From: Thermoplasmata archaeon
GTDB lineage: Archaea; Thermoplasmatota; Thermoplasmata; Thermoplasmatales; Thermoplasmataceae
DNA: 9,068 nt
Direction of reading: 5' to 3'
Assembly (NCBI GenBank): GCA_021835265.1
Contig: JAKBQK010000374.1
Span: 1-9,068 of the forward strand
Positions 1,145-9,036 of this stretch are shown here, one piece after another; position 1 is the stretch's first letter, and each line of letters begins with the position of its first letter. Under the pieces are notes generated by a model. That model saw nothing but the letters and a program-made list of their open reading frames with translations. It did no database searches and had not been told where the DNA came from. The position numbers and the translations under genes are program-made.

Positions 1145-3163
1145 TTACCTCCTCCTTGCTTGCGTTAAAATTGCTTTAGCATCCACCAATGATGTTGAAA
1201 ATATGGTGACCATATCCAGCTTGTAATCTGGAATCGTTTTTGGAAATCTCATTGCAGGTTTTGGCAAACCAAAGTATCCATGCTCCAATTCAACATAGTC
1301 CAGATTCAATGGCAGACCCTTGTCATTGAGATTCCTTATGAACACCGACTCATCTGCCCTGAAGGTCTTTCTTGTGTGGGCGAGAAATTCCCGTTTGCTG
1401 ATTTCCACGCTCCCCTTCGGGATTCCACCAAGCTTCCTTTCACGGCCTACATAGAAATCATTTATGCCGAATATCTCTGCCTTTCCCCCTTCCACACGCT
1501 TGAATTCACCCATCTTTCTACTGATAGGAATGATGCCTTCCAAAGGCTGGTCTGTGATGATGGAATCAGTGTTTGTGTAGTAGATGCGTTCCCATCCTAT
1601 TTTCTCGGCAACATTAACAAGATATTCCCACATTATGTGCCTTGCATTGGCCGAGATTTCAGATGCTATTATCACTGGCCTGTTCCTTAATTTCTTACTG
1701 TTGTTTGGGGTCTTCTCTACAAAATCAGGATAGGCCGCATATGTTCCGTGCTGATTCATTATCCTGATAGGTTTCTGTGAGATTCGTGCATTTTCCATAA
1801 GCTCCTTCGCAGTCACATAACCGTTCTCAATCTCAACTTCTGCTTCATCCTTTAAGGCTCTTTTTTCAATTCTTTTCTGTGCTGTCTTTCCATAGAGACC
1901 TACCATGGACAGTTTGTAAAAAGATTTCAAAAGACCAGTGGAATTCTCTTTACCGTTGTATAGCATTTTGACATAACTGCTGAAGAGGTCATCATTCCAG
2001 AATTCAATTACAGAATGGACTTCTATCCTTGCCTTTTGCTGATATAGGCTTACGAAGTCCATGCCCGTAAACATTCCCTGTCCATTCAGGAATTCCGTGG
2101 GCTTTCCATTCAAATCCATTAGCGGTATGCATACCCGTTTTGTATCTTCTGGCAATGAATATGTTAGAAATATCAGGTAATTTTTCTGCCTTTGCTTTTT
2201 GGAAAAGTCATTCTTCGGCTCCTGTCCACGAAGTATGTCCCTGTAAAGCGTTTCATTGTCTTTTGGGAAGAAAAATAACGGATTCCTATCTGAACCAAAC
2301 ATTGATTCATGCACTGGTGCAATGCTGTATCGGTGCCATGCCATTGCCGCACCGTGTAGTGAATTGACATCGTAGTAGTAGAGACGCACTGGTTTTTTGG
2401 TTATGACATAAGCCTCAATCCTTGCTCCCCTGAATGAAGCTTCTGCTCTGCTGTTTACCCAAATGCCCATCTGAATTGTGTTTGGCAGGTATATTCTCCA
2501 TCTCTCAAATGATGTTTTTGAAGTGGTAGAATGTATGGGGAATGGAATTAACTCCAATGCAGAATAAAGTGATTCTGTCTTTACTTTGCATTCTTCAATA
2601 TCTGTATTTGTTGGAAGAATCCTGTAAAATTCTTTAAGCAATTGATCCAGACCGATTCCAGGGAAAAAGTTTTCAAAACCAAGAATTCTGACAGTATGTC
2701 TTTTGTCAGGAGTTTTCCCATAAAGAATGAAAATGACTTGTTCTATTATCTGACTGCTTACCTTGATATTGAGATTTTCCTTTATTCTTTTGAATAGGCC
2801 ATTTGCTACCATTTGATGATAGGGGTCATAGGAAATAATCGCAATCTTGCGATATTTACGAATCAAGCGGGAAAGGGATTCTTCAAGATTATCATAGCCC
2901 CTTCCAGAGAGATGTTCTTCTCCGTTCCATAAGTCAAATGTTATGTTTTCTGAGCCCTTGGAAACCACTTCTTTCACGTGCAATGCGAAGATTCTTTCAG
3001 AGCGGGCAGTGCGCAGATATTCTGGGGTCTTGTTTTTAGATTCTGGCCTTTCGAATTCCTTGACAAATTTAGCAGGTAAAATAAGCGTGTAGTTTTCTCT
3101 TGTCTTTTTTCTTCTTGACCTTTCGGTAGCATGTGGATTAGATTTCATCTTGCCTGCTGACAT
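1145..3163 (-). CDS. polB: Protein-primed family B DNA polymerase (casposon type)
   Basis: Template-directed DNA synthesis, presumably replicating the mobile element from a protein-primed end. Family B motifs appear in order: the FRGARIE segment at 244-250 (the YxGG-like linker); motif A YYYDVNSLH with D265; motif B KSFYKLSMVGLYG at 413-426; motif C YYTNTDS at 528-534; then a KLGGIPKG thumb-side motif at 577-584. At 672 aa with no extra insertions, the size fits protein-primed enzymes (phi29 type, casposon families) better than cellular PolB. The N-terminal exonuclease domain is present in outline (about 55-205), but its acidic residues look lost; for example the exo III-like segment reads ECKVKTESLY with K195 where Asp is expected. 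Motif C has Asn531 for the first Asp. The ATG directly follows the TAA of the upstream coiled-coil gene, with Shine-Dalgarno AGGTGA at a short spacing. The family is firm; activity of either domain is inferred. Confidence 0.92.
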   Translation of the reverse strand: MSAGKMKSNPHATERSRRKKTRENYTLILPAKFVKEFERPESKNKTPEYLRTARSERIFALHVKEVVSKGSENITFDLWNGEEHLSGRGYDNLEESLSRLIRKYRKIAIISYDPYHQMVANGLFKRIKENLNIKVSSQIIEQVIFILYGKTPDKRHTVRILGFENFFPGIGLDQLLKEFYRILPTNTDIEECKVKTESLYSALELIPFPIHSTTSKTSFERWRIYLPNTIQMGIWVNSRAEASFRGARIEAYVITKKPVRLYYYDVNSLHGAAMAWHRYSIAPVHESMFGSDRNPLFFFPKDNETLYRDILRGQEPKNDFSKKQRQKNYLIFLTYSLPEDTKRVCIPLMDLNGKPTEFLNGQGMFTGMDFVSLYQQKARIEVHSVIEFWNDDLFSSYVKMLYNGKENSTGLLKSFYKLSMVGLYGKTAQKRIEKRALKDEAEVEIENGYVTAKELMENARISQKPIRIMNQHGTYAAYPDFVEKTPNNSKKLRNRPVIIASEISANARHIMWEYLVNVAEKIGWERIYYTNTDSIITDQPLEGIIPISRKMGEFKRVEGGKAEIFGINDFYVGRERKLGGIPKGSVEISKREFLAHTRKTFRADESVFIRNLNDKGLPLNLDYVELEHGYFGLPKPAMRFPKTIPDYKLDMVTIFSTSLVDAKAILTQARRR

Positions 3164-3796: not shown

Positions 3797-4045
3797 TTAC
3801 TCTCTTGCCTCCAGAAGTTCACTTCGGGCTGAACTGACCTGCTCTTCAAAATTTATTTTGGTAATGAGAACTATGGTCTGTCTTTTGCTGGATTTACATA
3901 TTACTGAAACTTCCTCATTAGGTTTCAGTTCGAGCATCTTTGCTACACTTGATGGTAGTGTTATTCCAACTCCACCACCCAGCTTCAAAACATGTCGAGT
4001 GTGTTTTTCAAATTCAGTAGTTACATTCGAGTCAGTTACATTCAT
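3797..4045 (-). CDS. AbrB/SpoVT swapped-hairpin DNA-binding protein (82 aa)
   Basis: Small transcription factor. Residues 18-62 form a typical AbrB/MazE/SpoVT swapped-hairpin beta barrel. They have the GxGITLPxxVAKxLxLKPxEEVSV pattern (hairpin GGGVGITLP at 23-31, KMLELKPNEEV at 36-46), followed by a final strand TIVLITK. The domain dimerises to bind DNA. The N-terminal 17 residues and the helical tail (65-82) are outside the domain. It is the first gene of the minus-strand operon and sits beside a palindrome-rich divergent intergenic region, its obvious target, so autoregulation and control of the plus-strand cargo are plausible. AbrB-like proteins are also antitoxins, but no adjacent PIN/MazF-like toxin is present. 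The start is ATG at 4043-4045 with a TATA-like ctatttaag about 36 nt upstream. Confidence 0.85.
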   Translation of the reverse strand: MNVTDSNVTTEFEKHTRHVLKLGGGVGITLPSSVAKMLELKPNEEVSVICKSSKRQTIVLITKINFEEQVSSARSELLEARE

Positions 4046-4234: not shown

Positions 4235-5284
4235 GTGACTTCCAAACAACATAATGAAAAATCTGGTGATTCCCCTAAAATCAAGCTGGATTTATTGTAT
4301 TTTAGTTACTTTTTTACCCAAGTACTATTTCTAATTGGAGGGTATAGTTTCATAATTAGCCCAAATAATGTTAATCCCGTATTTATACCAATCACTCAAG
4401 AAATAGGCACTTTTATTGAGTTAAATTCATTAGTAATGGCAGTTTTTGTCGCAATCAGCTTAAGGATTCTATGGAAAAACAAGGCAAACCCGCTTTTCAT
4501 AGCTACCTCAATTAAAGCATATCTCAATGTTAGTGTACCGTCTAAGTTAGCTATAATCCCACTCTATTTTTCACTTCTTATACTTGGAGCTTTGCAATCA
4601 ACACCAACTAGCCCTCCCTTCCTTAACTATAGTCCCCTTATTGGCCAAATCTATGGCATAACAGTTGTCCTGTTAATTTCTCTACTTGAATTTGTTGGCT
4701 ATTCTGTGGGATTATATTTGTTTAGTCCGGGATTCAAGGAACGGTGGACTTATATTTGGTCTGAAAAAAAAGACCAAGTCAATTATATTATTTTACGTGA
4801 AATAGGTGGAGTCTTGAAGCAATTCCAGAGTTTCCCTAAACTTGGTGAAAGCAGATACTCTTTTCTTCTTGAGGAGCTTTATAAGAATCTATCTAAAATT
4901 CTGAAAAAACGATTTCTCAAACTACAGATTGACATGTTAAACCAAATTTTTTCGGATATTCTACTTTCAATGAATCTTGGCACAGATATAGAAAAAGCCG
5001 ACGTGAAAGACTTCTTCATATCGATTGAAAAGTCACCGCAATTTCACCAAACAGACTTCTCTAAATTTCCAATTTTGATATTTGAAGAACTGGAGAAACT
5101 AACCACAAAATTGGGTAAAATTGACCAAAGAAGGCAACTGGCATCTATAGAAGGAAACTGGAATAAGCATTGGTACGATAGATTAGAACGTCACACTGGA
5201 ATCATTTCCTTAATATTGATTTTTATAGGTATAATTGGGCCAGTAGCAGCTTATTATATAACAAATTACCTATCTTCGCTGTGA
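4235..5284 (+). CDS. Five-helix membrane protein of unknown function (349 aa)
   Basis: No family recognised. Hydrophobic segments suggest transmembrane helices at about 21-42, 60-80, 103-121, 133-163 and 322-345. Between the fourth and fifth is a soluble, charged, helix-rich domain of about 155 residues (166-320), probably cytosolic because Lys/Arg clusters flank the helices (FKER at 167-170, KKRFLK at 224-229). There is no signal peptide, catalytic motif or nucleotide-binding loop that I can see. The GTG start at 4235 is chosen by the TATA box at leaderless distance. It is followed by a T-rich region and then the unknown gene at 5363, on the same strand. A membrane effector or sensor within a defence cargo is conceivable from context only. 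Its base composition is more AT-rich than the polymerase operon. Confidence 0.75.
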   Translation: MTSKQHNEKSGDSPKIKLDLLYFSYFFTQVLFLIGGYSFIISPNNVNPVFIPITQEIGTFIELNSLVMAVFVAISLRILWKNKANPLFIATSIKAYLNVSVPSKLAIIPLYFSLLILGALQSTPTSPPFLNYSPLIGQIYGITVVLLISLLEFVGYSVGLYLFSPGFKERWTYIWSEKKDQVNYIILREIGGVLKQFQSFPKLGESRYSFLLEELYKNLSKILKKRFLKLQIDMLNQIFSDILLSMNLGTDIEKADVKDFFISIEKSPQFHQTDFSKFPILIFEELEKLTTKLGKIDQRRQLASIEGNWNKHWYDRLERHTGIISLILIFIGIIGPVAAYYITNYLSSL

Positions 5285-5362
5285 ATATCCACTTTTCTTG
5301 TAACTTTTTTTAATAATTTTTTAGAGATTAATTGCTTTAAGTTTTATTATATAAAATTGCAG
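5285..5362 (+). promoter_or_regulatory. T-rich terminator and promoter region between cargo genes
   Basis: Runs of seven T (5304-5310) and six T (5316-5321) soon after the membrane-protein stop resemble an archaeal oligo-T terminator. A TATA-like ttattatataaaa (5344-5356) follows; at normal spacing it would start transcription near 5375, favouring translation from the internal ATG at 5423. A weaker TTTAAG (5334-5339) would suit a start at 5363. The next gene pair may therefore be transcribed separately from the membrane protein. Confidence 0.45.
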
Positions 5363-6481
5363 ATGCATTTATATTGGGCAAAAACGTATTGCCCCTATAA
5401 TGATTCAAGGCAAGGGGATTTCATGCCAATATTAGCACCTTTCATATATGACATATTAAGAGAGAGTCTTAAGCATTTAAACCAAAATCGTGGAGATTTT
5501 TCTCATTATTATGTTAGACCAGTTTATTTCCAAAGTGGATTTGATTCTGTCCAAAATTCATTCCCTGAGCTTCAAACAGACCTTCCAGAGGCCCTTCACT
5601 TAGGGATTGAGAAAAGATTAAGTAACCTAAATTCCGATTTTGTGATAGCCAAGATTACAGAAAATTACGGAATTTCAGCTGGTACCCTGGAAAAGAAATC
5701 TCAAAAATACTACGACCTAACAATCGAAAATATGAAGAATTATGGCATTGTTCCAGTTAGTATTCCAAAGCTCACACTTTATGATATAGCCAAGAGCCCA
5801 TTTGAAGGTTATATGCTCAAAGAATTCAGAGCTGGAGCAGAGCAACAGCAATCTTATTTCAAAGACCAGAAAGTTCCGGGAAATAATTTGCGACACATAG
5901 AAAGTCGGCTCGAGCAAGATAGAATAATGGGCCTTTTGCCCTACAGAACTGCTTTTTCAATTTCCAAAGTAGGATATAAATCTAAAACTGTGGAAGTTTT
6001 TTCAAATGGGCTTTTTGTAACTAATTACTTGGAGGAAAATTTCAATTTTATAATACAATTTTTGCAAAGGGTCGTGAAAGAAACCAAGGCAAGATTTGAA
6101 GAAAGTGCAAAAGTCAGAGTTGAGCAGAATGAGTGGTCAAGACAATATTTAGTAAAAGCAGATTTAGAGTTAAAGGTGGAACAAAAATTCTACAATCAGC
6201 AATTTGAGACCTTTGCAAAAAATGCTGAGACTTTAATCGACCCAAAATTCTTTAAAATTGGGAGGTTATTTGACATAGAAAATAAAGAAGGGGCATTTCA
6301 CTCCATATTTACAACGGACTCTGTTGAATATGATCCATTAGAAGCGCACTATACCATCAACATTGAAAAGGGTAAAATAGGTATTTCACCAGTTTTCAGT
6401 AAAAATGATTTGTGGTTTTTAACAAAACTCTTACACACAATTGACAGTTATTTTCCAATTCAAGATGTGAGAGCAGTATAA
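5363..6481 (+). CDS. Protein of unknown function, partner of the nuclease-like gene (372 aa)
   Basis: No family recognised. It is a soluble protein with no membrane segments. It mixes helices with beta segments, and a long charged helical stretch (about 222-285, FIIQFLQRVVKETKARFEES onward) looks like a coiled coil. I see no nuclease, ATPase, methyltransferase or helicase signature; in particular no DPPY/NPPY and no P-loop. ATG 5363 is the first methionine. An in-frame TTG lies at 5357, and an ATG at 5423 has a purine-rich AAGGGGA before it and better spacing to the TATA box, so the true protein may be 352 aa beginning MPILAPF. The stop is 17 nt before the nuclease-like gene on the same strand, so the two are probably co-transcribed and may act together. 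Confidence 0.75.
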   Translation: MHLYWAKTYCPYNDSRQGDFMPILAPFIYDILRESLKHLNQNRGDFSHYYVRPVYFQSGFDSVQNSFPELQTDLPEALHLGIEKRLSNLNSDFVIAKITENYGISAGTLEKKSQKYYDLTIENMKNYGIVPVSIPKLTLYDIAKSPFEGYMLKEFRAGAEQQQSYFKDQKVPGNNLRHIESRLEQDRIMGLLPYRTAFSISKVGYKSKTVEVFSNGLFVTNYLEENFNFIIQFLQRVVKETKARFEESAKVRVEQNEWSRQYLVKADLELKVEQKFYNQQFETFAKNAETLIDPKFFKIGRLFDIENKEGAFHSIFTTDSVEYDPLEAHYTINIEKGKIGISPVFSKNDLWFLTKLLHTIDSYFPIQDVRAV

Positions 6482-6498: not shown

Positions 6499-6708
6499 AT
6501 GCCGTCGAAGAAGGATTATATTCAGAAAAAGTACGAAGATTTACAAACAGAATATGAACACCTAAAGCTCGTGGCAACGGTTTATAATGAGTTTCACAAA
6601 GATAAGAAATTCGAATATGTATATGGAGGAATGGACTTCTTTACAAACCAAAATAATAAAGACAAATCTTGGGATATTATATTATATTATATTCTAAAGA
6701 CGAATTAA
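6499..6708 (+). CDS. PD-(D/E)XK nuclease-like gene, N-terminal part (out of frame)
   Basis: This is the first 69 codons of a gene that continues in another frame. Residues 1-30 are helical and charged. SWDIILYY at 57-64 carries D59, the likely first metal-binding acid of a PD-(D/E)XK core. The frame runs through four ATATT units (6674-6693), then adds ILKTN and stops at TAA 6706. The downstream frame supplies IEAKGQ, the E-x-K half of the motif. Removing one 5-nt unit joins the frames as WDIILYSKDELKK and onward with no stop, giving a 351-residue protein in which D59 precedes E79 and K81. The start is ATG 6499, 17 nt after the upstream stop, with a weak GGAG at 6483-6486. As sequenced, the product would be a short inactive fragment. 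Confidence 0.7.
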   Translation: MPSKKDYIQKKYEDLQTEYEHLKLVATVYNEFHKDKKFEYVYGGMDFFTNQNNKDKSWDIILYYILKTN

Positions 6709-7559
6709 AAAAAGGTTTGTTATTGCCAATTTTTATTGAAGCAAAAGGGCAAGATACCACCGCAGTCAAGTTTGAGAAAGATTTAACCGATAAAATAGAT
6801 ATTACTGAGAAAATTCTCGAAGACTCAGTTTCTAGAGAGACTTATTTTAATCAACCAGGAATTCAACTGAATGTCACAGGAAGTAATTATAAACAAGGTA
6901 CTGCTGAATACGTTGTATTATTAAACGACCTTGATTTTCAGACTCACTTTCTTGACCCAAAATCTGGATTAACCAATGGCTTACCCCTCAACCTAATTTG
7001 GTGGGCAGTATCCTCTGTGGGTGTAGGAAAACAATCGGTTTCCCTTCCCTATGGCACCAATAATGGAATCCCAGAATGGAAAAATTGTAGCAAAACTGGA
7101 TTCTGTAAACATAACAACAAAAACCTAAATAACTGGCTATCCTTGCGAAAATCCATTCGATTGGACCAAATCCCTATCCCATGCAAATCGGGAACGATGA
7201 GCAAAGCGATGAAAATTGCAGTAATGCTGAACACTGGAGAACTTTTTCCGAAGCAGAATACCTTGCTCACTCGAGAAACTTTAAAAATGAGGATCATGGC
7301 GCAGTTTTTCTTATTCGGTTGCCTGGATCAGGAAGATTATGCTGATTTGTTAATAGATGAGATGTGCAGGTTAAAAGTTATAAAACAAGTTAAAAACGAT
7401 GCCCTTGGCAGATATAAGCTATATGGCAAAAAGGTGTTTAGACTCAGCAAGGGTCTTGGTGTATCTCAACTTACTGTGGATGAAGATATCTTGTTTTATC
7501 TTGCAACAAATTCGTGGGACAGCAAACTTGGTCAAATGTCATTGGATCCATACTATTGA
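6669..7559 (+). CDS. PD-(D/E)XK nuclease-like gene, C-terminal part
   Basis: This is the main body of the split gene. The first acceptable start in this frame is TTG 6669, which overlaps the N-terminal part and is probably not used. PIFIEAKGQ (E at 6738, K at 6744) is the E-x-K half of a PD-(D/E)XK core, as in restriction and repair nucleases. Next comes a beta-rich stretch (TAEYVVLLNDLDF) and a segment with Cys/His (NCSKTGFCKH, about 142-151 of this fragment). The last third is helical, resembling a winged-helix or specificity domain (QEDYADLLIDEMCRLKVIKQ). No methyltransferase is adjacent, so a classical restriction-modification pair is not evident. It ends 13 nt before the convergent cas1 stop. 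It could be a phase-variable nuclease, a decaying pseudogene or a sequencing error; I favour the first moderately. Confidence 0.75.
   Translation: MGYYIILYSKDELKKGLLLPIFIEAKGQDTTAVKFEKDLTDKIDITEKILEDSVSRETYFNQPGIQLNVTGSNYKQGTAEYVVLLNDLDFQTHFLDPKSGLTNGLPLNLIWWAVSSVGVGKQSVSLPYGTNNGIPEWKNCSKTGFCKHNNKNLNNWLSLRKSIRLDQIPIPCKSGTMSKAMKIAVMLNTGELFPKQNTLLTRETLKMRIMAQFFLFGCLDQEDYADLLIDEMCRLKVIKQVKNDALGRYKLYGKKVFRLSKGLGVSQLTVDEDILFYLATNSWDSKLGQMSLDPYY
6674..6693 (+). repeat. Pentanucleotide repeat (ATATT)x4 inside the nuclease-like gene
   Basis: Four perfect tandem copies of ATATT sit exactly where the reading frame breaks. Five is not a multiple of three, so each gain or loss changes the frame. Arithmetic on the two frames shows that a 5-nt loss (three copies) restores one continuous reading frame of 351 codons plus stop. 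This is the architecture of a slippage-type phase-variation switch, caught here in the off state. Confidence 0.85.
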
Positions 7560-7572
7560 TAATGTTGGTATT

Positions 7573-8742
7573 TCATGTTTTTAGTTTTATGTTTGTCTTA
7601 TTATAAAGTTTGAAATTTCCCTTTTCGATATTTTGCTTCATATACCACAGTGACCCTTTACTGTAACCCATCTCCTTCCATTCCTTATAGCTCATTTTCA
7701 GAATCTTTTCCCTCAATTCCTTGGTATCCGTTCTCTCGGCTTCGAATTGTGGCATTGTCAAATCGGCCTTGAACTCTTTAGAGAATTCCCGTGCCTTGTC
7801 ATAGATTACAGTATACCACTGCCATTCGGCCTTCTTGAACTTTACTTTGGAAGACAGCGAATCCTGAATTAGCCTTATGAGTTTGTCTATTCCATTTTTC
7901 TTAAGCTTTATTGTATATGTGAGCAGATCCCGTGTGAAATCATCCTTGTTAAATACCTTTGATTCAAGCCCCCTGATAATGCTCCAGTCCACAAGGAACC
8001 TGTATGGCTCCACGAAGTCATAGGTCAACGGTTTCTTGCCTGAAGCAACCTCATGCAGGAATCCTATGTTCACGTCTAAACCATTGGAAACCAATGCTCT
8101 TTGGATGATGCTTTCAAGATATGTGTAACCATAATTCAATAATGCATTGACCTCATCTACGGCATTCATTGGCCTTTTGGTACGGCCTATATCCCTGTTC
8201 CCCACGTCGAAGTTAAAGCCATTCAGTATCGCATTGACCTCTGTCCAGTAGGTATTGGCCGTGATCCCCTCTATGCCCATTATTTCCCTGAGACTCTTGG
8301 CTTTGGCTAACTGTTCCTGAACCTCATTAAACCTGAATTTCTCAAGGTTAATGTCATACCTCTGGGATAAGAACTCAAGGAAGTCCTGCGTATGCTTAAT
8401 CTTCCCCTGTATGAACTGCCGAGCAATCTCAACCCTTTTCTTGGTATAGGCTTCATATTGCCTTATGCGAGTCCTGGCATCATTGACAGCAGGCTCAATC
8501 ATGCTCATTAAAGTGCCATTGAAATCAAGAACCATCAATGGCACGTTGTTCCTTGCCAGCCAGTGCATGGCCGATATAGATACATTGCCTGTAGGCTTGC
8601 AGATAACAATATTCTCGAAGTCTACCTCTTTAGGATTGTATAGCTCTTCCCTTCGTTCTGAACCGTTAAGCTCTGTAATCTTGAGCCTGCCAGCCTCAAC
8701 CCTGATGTCTGTAAATGTCCCTGAAAGCAGTATAGAGCGCAT
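7573..8742 (-). CDS. cas1: Cas1-family casposase (389 aa)
   Basis: Cas1 integrase, here probably the casposase that inserts the element. The N-terminal beta domain (1-80) and C-terminal alpha domain (about 95-320) are both complete. The catalytic set is visible: E158 in MGIEG, H230 in GFLHE, and D242/E245 in YDFVEPYR, plus the family-typical NALLNYGY at 199-206. At 389 aa it is longer than CRISPR Cas1 (about 300-340). The extra C-terminal tail (about 337-389) contains SYKEWKEMGYSKGSLWYM, a helix-turn-helix-like segment typical of casposases. No cas2, other cas gene or CRISPR array is in view, while a protein-primed polymerase and a tRNA 3' end are, which is casposon context. The ATG at 8740-8742 has a TATA box centred 29 nt upstream, so the mRNA is probably leaderless. 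The protein family is certain; transposase rather than adaptation role is strongly inferred. Confidence 0.93.
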   Translation of the reverse strand: MRSILLSGTFTDIRVEAGRLKITELNGSERREELYNPKEVDFENIVICKPTGNVSISAMHWLARNNVPLMVLDFNGTLMSMIEPAVNDARTRIRQYEAYTKKRVEIARQFIQGKIKHTQDFLEFLSQRYDINLEKFRFNEVQEQLAKAKSLREIMGIEGITANTYWTEVNAILNGFNFDVGNRDIGRTKRPMNAVDEVNALLNYGYTYLESIIQRALVSNGLDVNIGFLHEVASGKKPLTYDFVEPYRFLVDWSIIRGLESKVFNKDDFTRDLLTYTIKLKKNGIDKLIRLIQDSLSSKVKFKKAEWQWYTVIYDKAREFSKEFKADLTMPQFEAERTDTKELREKILKMSYKEWKEMGYSKGSLWYMKQNIEKGNFKLYNKTNIKLKT

Positions 8743-8799: not shown

Positions 8800-8815
8800 A
8801 ATCCGCCCTCCGCAT
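8800..8815 (+). repeat. Inverted near-copy of the tRNA-Leu 3' end
   Basis: The sequence aatccgccctccgcat matches the tRNA-sense strand at 8967-8951 (aatccggccctccgcat) at 16 of 17 positions; the only difference is one missing G. It includes the whole 3' acceptor strand, the discriminator A and one following base. Its orientation is opposite to the intact tRNA, with 135 nt between the two copies. Confidence 0.75.
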
Positions 8816-8951
8816 CGACTTTGAATCATATCATTATATCATCATTTTAATATAATAAAAAGCGGCTATAATGTAATACAATATCGCCAGCGGAGCCCGT
8901 ATAGAGCGGCGTGGGGAGTGGGGTGCGCATGTGCTTCTCTCTTATATAGTA

Positions 8952-9036
8952 TGCGGAGGGCCGGATTCGAACCGGCGCATCCCTACGGAAACAGATCTTG
9001 AGTCTGTCGCCTTTAACCTGGCTCGGCAACCTCCGC
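8952..9036 (-). tRNA. trnL: tRNA-Leu (anticodon CAA)
   Basis: A class II tRNA decoding UUG. Acceptor arm GCGGAGG/CCTCCGC pairs perfectly, with A73 as the discriminator (Leu identity). The D-arm is GCC/GGC, the anticodon stem ACAGA/TCTGT and the loop CTCAAGA, giving anticodon CAA. The 14-nt variable arm can pair as TTCC-GTA-GGGA, and the T-arm is GCCGG-TTCGAAT-CCGGC. No CCA is encoded and there is no intron. Its 3' end faces the cas1 gene, the position where casposons of several archaea integrate. Upstream, ataagtatac near the window edge may be its TATA box. Confidence 0.95.

Follow-up and report, generated by a model that had tools for sequence, protein, structure and literature searches.

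The window, by which we mean the whole 9,068-nt stretch of DNA analysed here, carries a stand-alone Cas1 gene and a B-family DNA polymerase gene, with a tRNA-Leu gene adjoining the Cas1 end of the element (Table 1). The pairing of a stand-alone Cas1 with this polymerase beside a tRNA gene points to a casposon, the setting that the original prediction had proposed. The element resembles family 1 casposons, which likewise combine Cas1 with a PF03175-type B-family polymerase and are known to carry element-specific nucleases as cargo, according to the available text of PMC4046053 and PMC6563490. In the same text, ef-2 is the target of most thaumarchaeal family 1 elements described so far, whereas the element in the window abuts tRNA-Leu. 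No terminal inverted repeats or target-site duplication were found between the window ends, nor was the left end of the element found in the window; it may lie outside. Near the left edge, positions 33–61 include (TCC)x4 and 14 consecutive A, possibly low complexity of a contig end. An imperfect palindrome of about 89 nt (8807–8895), bordered by CTCCGC/GCGGAG, is located between the Cas1 gene and tRNA-Leu and resembles part of the tRNA 3' end in inverted orientation. A small protein encoded at 3797–4045 on the minus strand shows a weak MazE/AbrB-like match (E 5.2e-4, under the Pfam cut-off).

Table 1. Features of the casposon window (positions are those of the 9,068-nt stretch)
Feature	Position	Strand	Basis
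B-family DNA polymerase, PF03175 type	1145..3163	-	Pfam E 1.1e-11; PHROG DNA polymerase E 1.6e-10
Partner gene directly upstream of the nuclease gene	5423..6481	+	Homologue precedes the nuclease in L078, L079 and L081
Nuclease gene, N-terminal piece, 69 aa, with conserved S-W-D Asp (D59)	6499..6708	+	
Nuclease gene, C-terminal piece, with E-A-K; first standard start TTG 6669, 296 aa	6660..7559	+	
(ATATT)x4 tract, site of the frame break	6674..6693	+	Sequence and Tandem Repeats Finder
Cas1 (casposase candidate)	7573..8742	-	Pfam PF01867 E 1.4e-53 and homologues
tRNA-Leu (CAA), adjoining the Cas1 end of the element	8952..9036	-	

The closest full-length Cas1 on genome contigs is about 39% identical (among the best 80 of 111 matches), and metagenomic proteins reach up to 91% identity. 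Against 77 casposon loci, no window protein save Cas1 found a match, and neither did the nuclease and partner family profiles described below; viral scans with Cas1 and the polymerase returned no relative. The tRNA-Leu gene with its 5' flank matches genome G359 at 95% (query 1–118) and G254 at 94% (query 1–121), in a search confined to the order of genome G239, where 116 of 117 genomes matched at some level. Because of these two matches, the host of the casposon probably belongs in or near that order. In four relatives (L094–L097), the 3' end of the tRNA marks the limit of similarity to the window, and the stretches of about 17.6, 17.6, 1.9 and 16.4 kb beyond it yielded no window protein.

The nuclease gene is divided between two frames. 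The frame that opens with the ATG at 6499 comprises 69 codons and ends with a stop at 6706; another frame, open from just after a stop at 6657, extends up to a stop at 7557. The four perfect ATATT copies that the original prediction had placed at the break are confirmed as a single array by Tandem Repeats Finder (4.0 copies, 100% matches), and this array is the longest period-5 tract of the window. Period-5 sequence of at least 20 nt occurred in 0 of 2000 and 1 of 1500 windows simulated with a third-order Markov model of the whole window, and tracts of at least 15 nt in 34 of 1500; a three-copy pattern had a mean of 0.00 across 200 dinucleotide-preserving shuffles. A four-copy ATATT tract is thus very unlikely to occur by chance. 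As in phase-variable loci governed by simple sequence repeats, the unit is not a multiple of three and lies inside a coding region. The loss of one copy does yield the predicted frame of 351 residues, which is also the length of the intact homologue P0124.

Out of 524 candidates, a protein search with the C-terminal piece yielded three listed clusters; the clusters were made at 90% identity with only representatives listed, and an unbroken form may hide as a member. P0001 is the window's own 296-aa C-terminal piece (2 member sequences on 5 contigs, possibly from few samples), P0002 is a protein of 362 aa (81% identical, 4 members, 6 contigs), and P0003 is one of 322 aa, whose tail, from about residue 306 to the end, is unlike that of the other members and may reflect truncation, recombination or a contig-end effect. 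A profile search added P0124, which is 57% identical to P0002. The N-terminal piece of the window is identical to residues 7–70 of P0002 at 60 of 64 positions, and the C-terminal piece continues P0002 at 81% identity over 98% of its own length; both pieces match consecutive parts of P0003 as well. Since homology, beyond the arithmetic of the repeat, joins the two pieces in the homologues, they constitute a single gene, as the read-through proteins P0002, P0003 and P0124 bear out. The residues at the break site are SWDILLYS in P0002, SWDVLLYS in P0003 and SWDVFLFS in P0124, with no insertion at the join. Three perfect ATATT units in the nuclease frame would need D-I-I-L-Y, and the residues of all three proteins exclude them. 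The expectation that homologues with intact frames would carry three copies therefore failed. An ATATT tract is absent from the site in the three distant loci with DNA (L078, L079 and L081), no unbroken near-identical form was found among the cluster representatives, and no other repeat length among the homologues listed.

In the restored frame, D59 aligns with D66 of P0002, and E79-A-K81 with its E86-A-K88. Alignment A6, in which two of the five rows come from G239, shows no variation at the S-x-D Asp or at the Glu and Lys of P-I-F-I-E-x-K. The pattern D...(D/E)-x-K is the signature of the PD-(D/E)XK superfamily, and its conservation across the five homologues bears out the motif that had been proposed for these residues. 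As in that superfamily, the invariant Asp and Glu-x-Lys are 20 residues apart, and the Glu-x-Lys resides in a strand-like segment. In the window copy, the conserved Asp and the E-x-K sit in two different frames. Judged by this pattern, the broken gene is that of a PD-(D/E)XK-like nuclease, and the 5-nt frame break separates its putative catalytic residues. Unlike the named PD-(D/E)XK families, it has no match in Pfam, NCBIfam, PADLOC, PHROGs or PDB sequences, and the same searches gave nothing credible for the partner; the PADLOC result covers the window pieces, P0002, P0003, P0124 and the L078 and L079 pairs. AlphaFold2 models of two homologues reached a mean pLDDT of 34.9 and 36.9, too poor for a fold comparison.

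The gene directly upstream did not figure in the original prediction; its start is the ATG at 5423, with an upstream TTG at 5357 possible. When P0124 was searched against 292 genomes of the phylum of G005, the genome of Thermoplasmata locus L022, a single genome, G239, was found to carry two open homologues, L078 (28% identity, E 8.3e-17) and L079 (24%, E 4.2e-11). Profile A6 recovered G239 again among the 117 genomes of its order, together with G248 (L081, E 1.4e-6). A homologue of the upstream gene immediately precedes the nuclease in all three distant archaeal loci found. All four partners were matched by leave-one-out profiles with E-values no higher than 6.6e-20, and five of six pairs matched in single-sequence comparisons, the exception being L079 with L081. 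By this homology, the nuclease gene forms the downstream half of a conserved two-gene pair, newly seen here.

The partner–nuclease pair is rare among the sampled genomes. Partner profile A7 matched 2 of 389 genomes, both already the sources of three of its four rows, and 0 of 246 and 0 of 237 in two further sets; the nuclease profile matched 0 of 250, and two small sets gave 0 of 9 and 0 of 2. One candidate from 156 genomes searched with the nuclease profile (L083) was rejected, as it has six stops in about 118 codons and overlaps another open reading frame in a different frame. Genome and viral scans with the nuclease, phages and plasmids gave no locus for the other contigs of P0001 or for P0002, P0003 and P0124. 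Plasmids yielded no locus of the partner, and viral scans with its profile found no relative. The L079 pair has an ISL3 transposase on one side and a type I restriction-modification operon on the other, both at a distance of about 1 kb; a DpdB-like gene is located about 1.2 kb beyond the L081 nuclease, and the L078 pair has a mixed neighbourhood with no clear defence gene by eye. Since defence-like neighbours occur in two of the three loci, a defence role is suggested through guilt by association. In the window, a 349-aa protein with hydrophobic segments by eye is encoded upstream of the pair on the same strand (4235–5284, plus strand), and its only family match is a PHROG at E 0.078.

Of the four loci with DNA (the window, L078, L079 and L081), every one keeps an open partner frame, and none carries a conventional nuclease gene. 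In the window, the nuclease is frame-broken and the partner intact. The distant homologue at L081:1495–2619 (plus strand) stays in one frame with two in-frame stops beside an intact partner: a TAG at the expected Trp of S-W-D and a TAA 109 codons later. Its three pieces match successive parts of the family profile, with E-values that come from the three-piece search only. L078:1246–2445 (minus strand) has no ATG, GTG or TTG ahead of the conserved Asp, and L079:1480–2520 (plus strand) offers no standard start until a TTG at codon 28 of its open frame, a position that still precedes the Asp. The nuclease open frames of L078 and L079 overlap or abut the partner stop, and possible ATA or ATT codons overlap that stop. 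P0002, P0003 and P0124 begin with Met, in protein collections that are biased toward genes with ordinary starts. Conventional, intact members of the family do exist, as P0002 and P0124 demonstrate.

The age of the break was approached through unique changes in 243 columns of the C-terminal piece, counted at columns in which P0124 and the two remaining close homologues share a residue. The window has 4 such changes, P0002 12 and P0003 8 (binomial p 0.077 and 0.39; not significant); the counts without the outgroup are 9, 28 and 22 (p 0.0026 and 0.029). Neither a further stop nor excess change was detected in this piece of the window nuclease; therefore, either the break is recent or the nuclease gene is still under selection. 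The original prediction had named homologues lacking the repeat, in a gene otherwise decaying with further stops, as evidence against a switch: the homologues do lack it, whereas the decay was not found.

Considering these results, a recent slippage frameshift probably turned off a casposon-borne effector, in a manner reversible in principle. AT-rich codons for D-I-I-L-Y would have created a short ATATT tract by chance; since, for these residues, the five codons have a probability of 0.022 under local codon usage, the tract can be explained without any particular cause. Gain of a single 5-nt unit by strand slippage would then have put the catalytic Asp and the E-x-K out of frame with each other. 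The sequenced four-copy allele would produce no full nuclease and presumably lacks its activity, while the partner stays intact. The effector gene would thus belong to a two-gene partner–nuclease cassette on the casposon, and slippage could also revert the frame, giving the tract the mechanics of a contingency locus. The presence of the partner in all three distant loci, and the L081 nuclease broken by stops beside an open partner, were counted in favour of this loss by slippage.

The tract might instead serve as a phase-variation switch in use, with different unit counts coexisting in the population and reversible slippage activating the nuclease in a minority of cells. The unit length, the position of the tract early in the gene and the nuclease-type product without excess decay all agree with such a switch, and the lack of excess change, which would fit continued selection through switching, counts to that extent against a simple recent loss. 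A precedent is the hsdM gene of H. influenzae, whose (GACGA)4 repeat switches from four to three copies at high rates according to the available text of PMC2651432; by this analogy, the repeat-mediated mechanism of the original prediction is plausible. Both genes would be DNA-defence genes with a four-copy pentanucleotide in the coding frame, where gain or loss of a single unit shifts the frame. For hsdM, strains differ in repeat length and rates of switching have been measured, whereas the casposon nuclease has been seen at one length; moreover, unlike hsdM, the ATATT tract sits on an archaeal casposon in an undescribed nuclease-like family. Short tandem repeats are few in archaeal genomes, as stated in the accessible portion of a survey (PMC12699852). 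A switch in use is unlikely, given that the tract is absent from every homologue seen, no alternative length was observed, 20 nt is short, and the L081 nuclease is broken by plain stops instead. The nuclease may be toxic and kept mostly off, as originally suggested. A broader version, in which a repeat-driven switch controls the nuclease of an undescribed two-gene conflict system and slippage, stops and missing starts keep the effector off while the partner is kept, is also doubtful, marginally more so than the switch itself.

An error of assembly or consensus, with the true sequence unbroken, would explain why the gene is otherwise intact, and the low-complexity left edge of the window lends this some credence; it is improbable, as the broken-frame 296-aa cluster has two members on five contigs (which could stem from repeated assembly of a single sample) and a 20-nt tract is easily spanned by sequencing reads. 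Least probable of all is unconventional expression, by which recoding or reinitiation would supply a low level of full nuclease as a family habit of throttled translation. The lack of a conventional nuclease gene in every locus with DNA and the contact of the L078 and L079 frames with the partner stop speak for it. Against it stand the Met starts of the three protein homologues, the absence by eye of a Shine-Dalgarno-like motif before the TTG at 6669, and the frame relation between partner and nuclease, which differs between L078 and L079, so that a single shared frameshift does not fit. Ribosomal frameshifting finds no support in the sequence either, the overlap having no canonical -1 slippery heptamer.

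On the favoured reading of a recent slippage frameshift, the ATATT tract has, in principle, the mechanics of a contingency locus, though selected use as a switch is unlikely. If the tract does switch, short-repeat contingency control of defence-like genes would extend to an archaeal casposon, for which the literature matches listed contain no case. The pattern of a nuclease that is broken or oddly started beside an open partner in all four loci would fit a costly effector. Even without switching, an unnamed partner–nuclease pair emerges from this analysis, one copy of which lies beside a type I restriction system.
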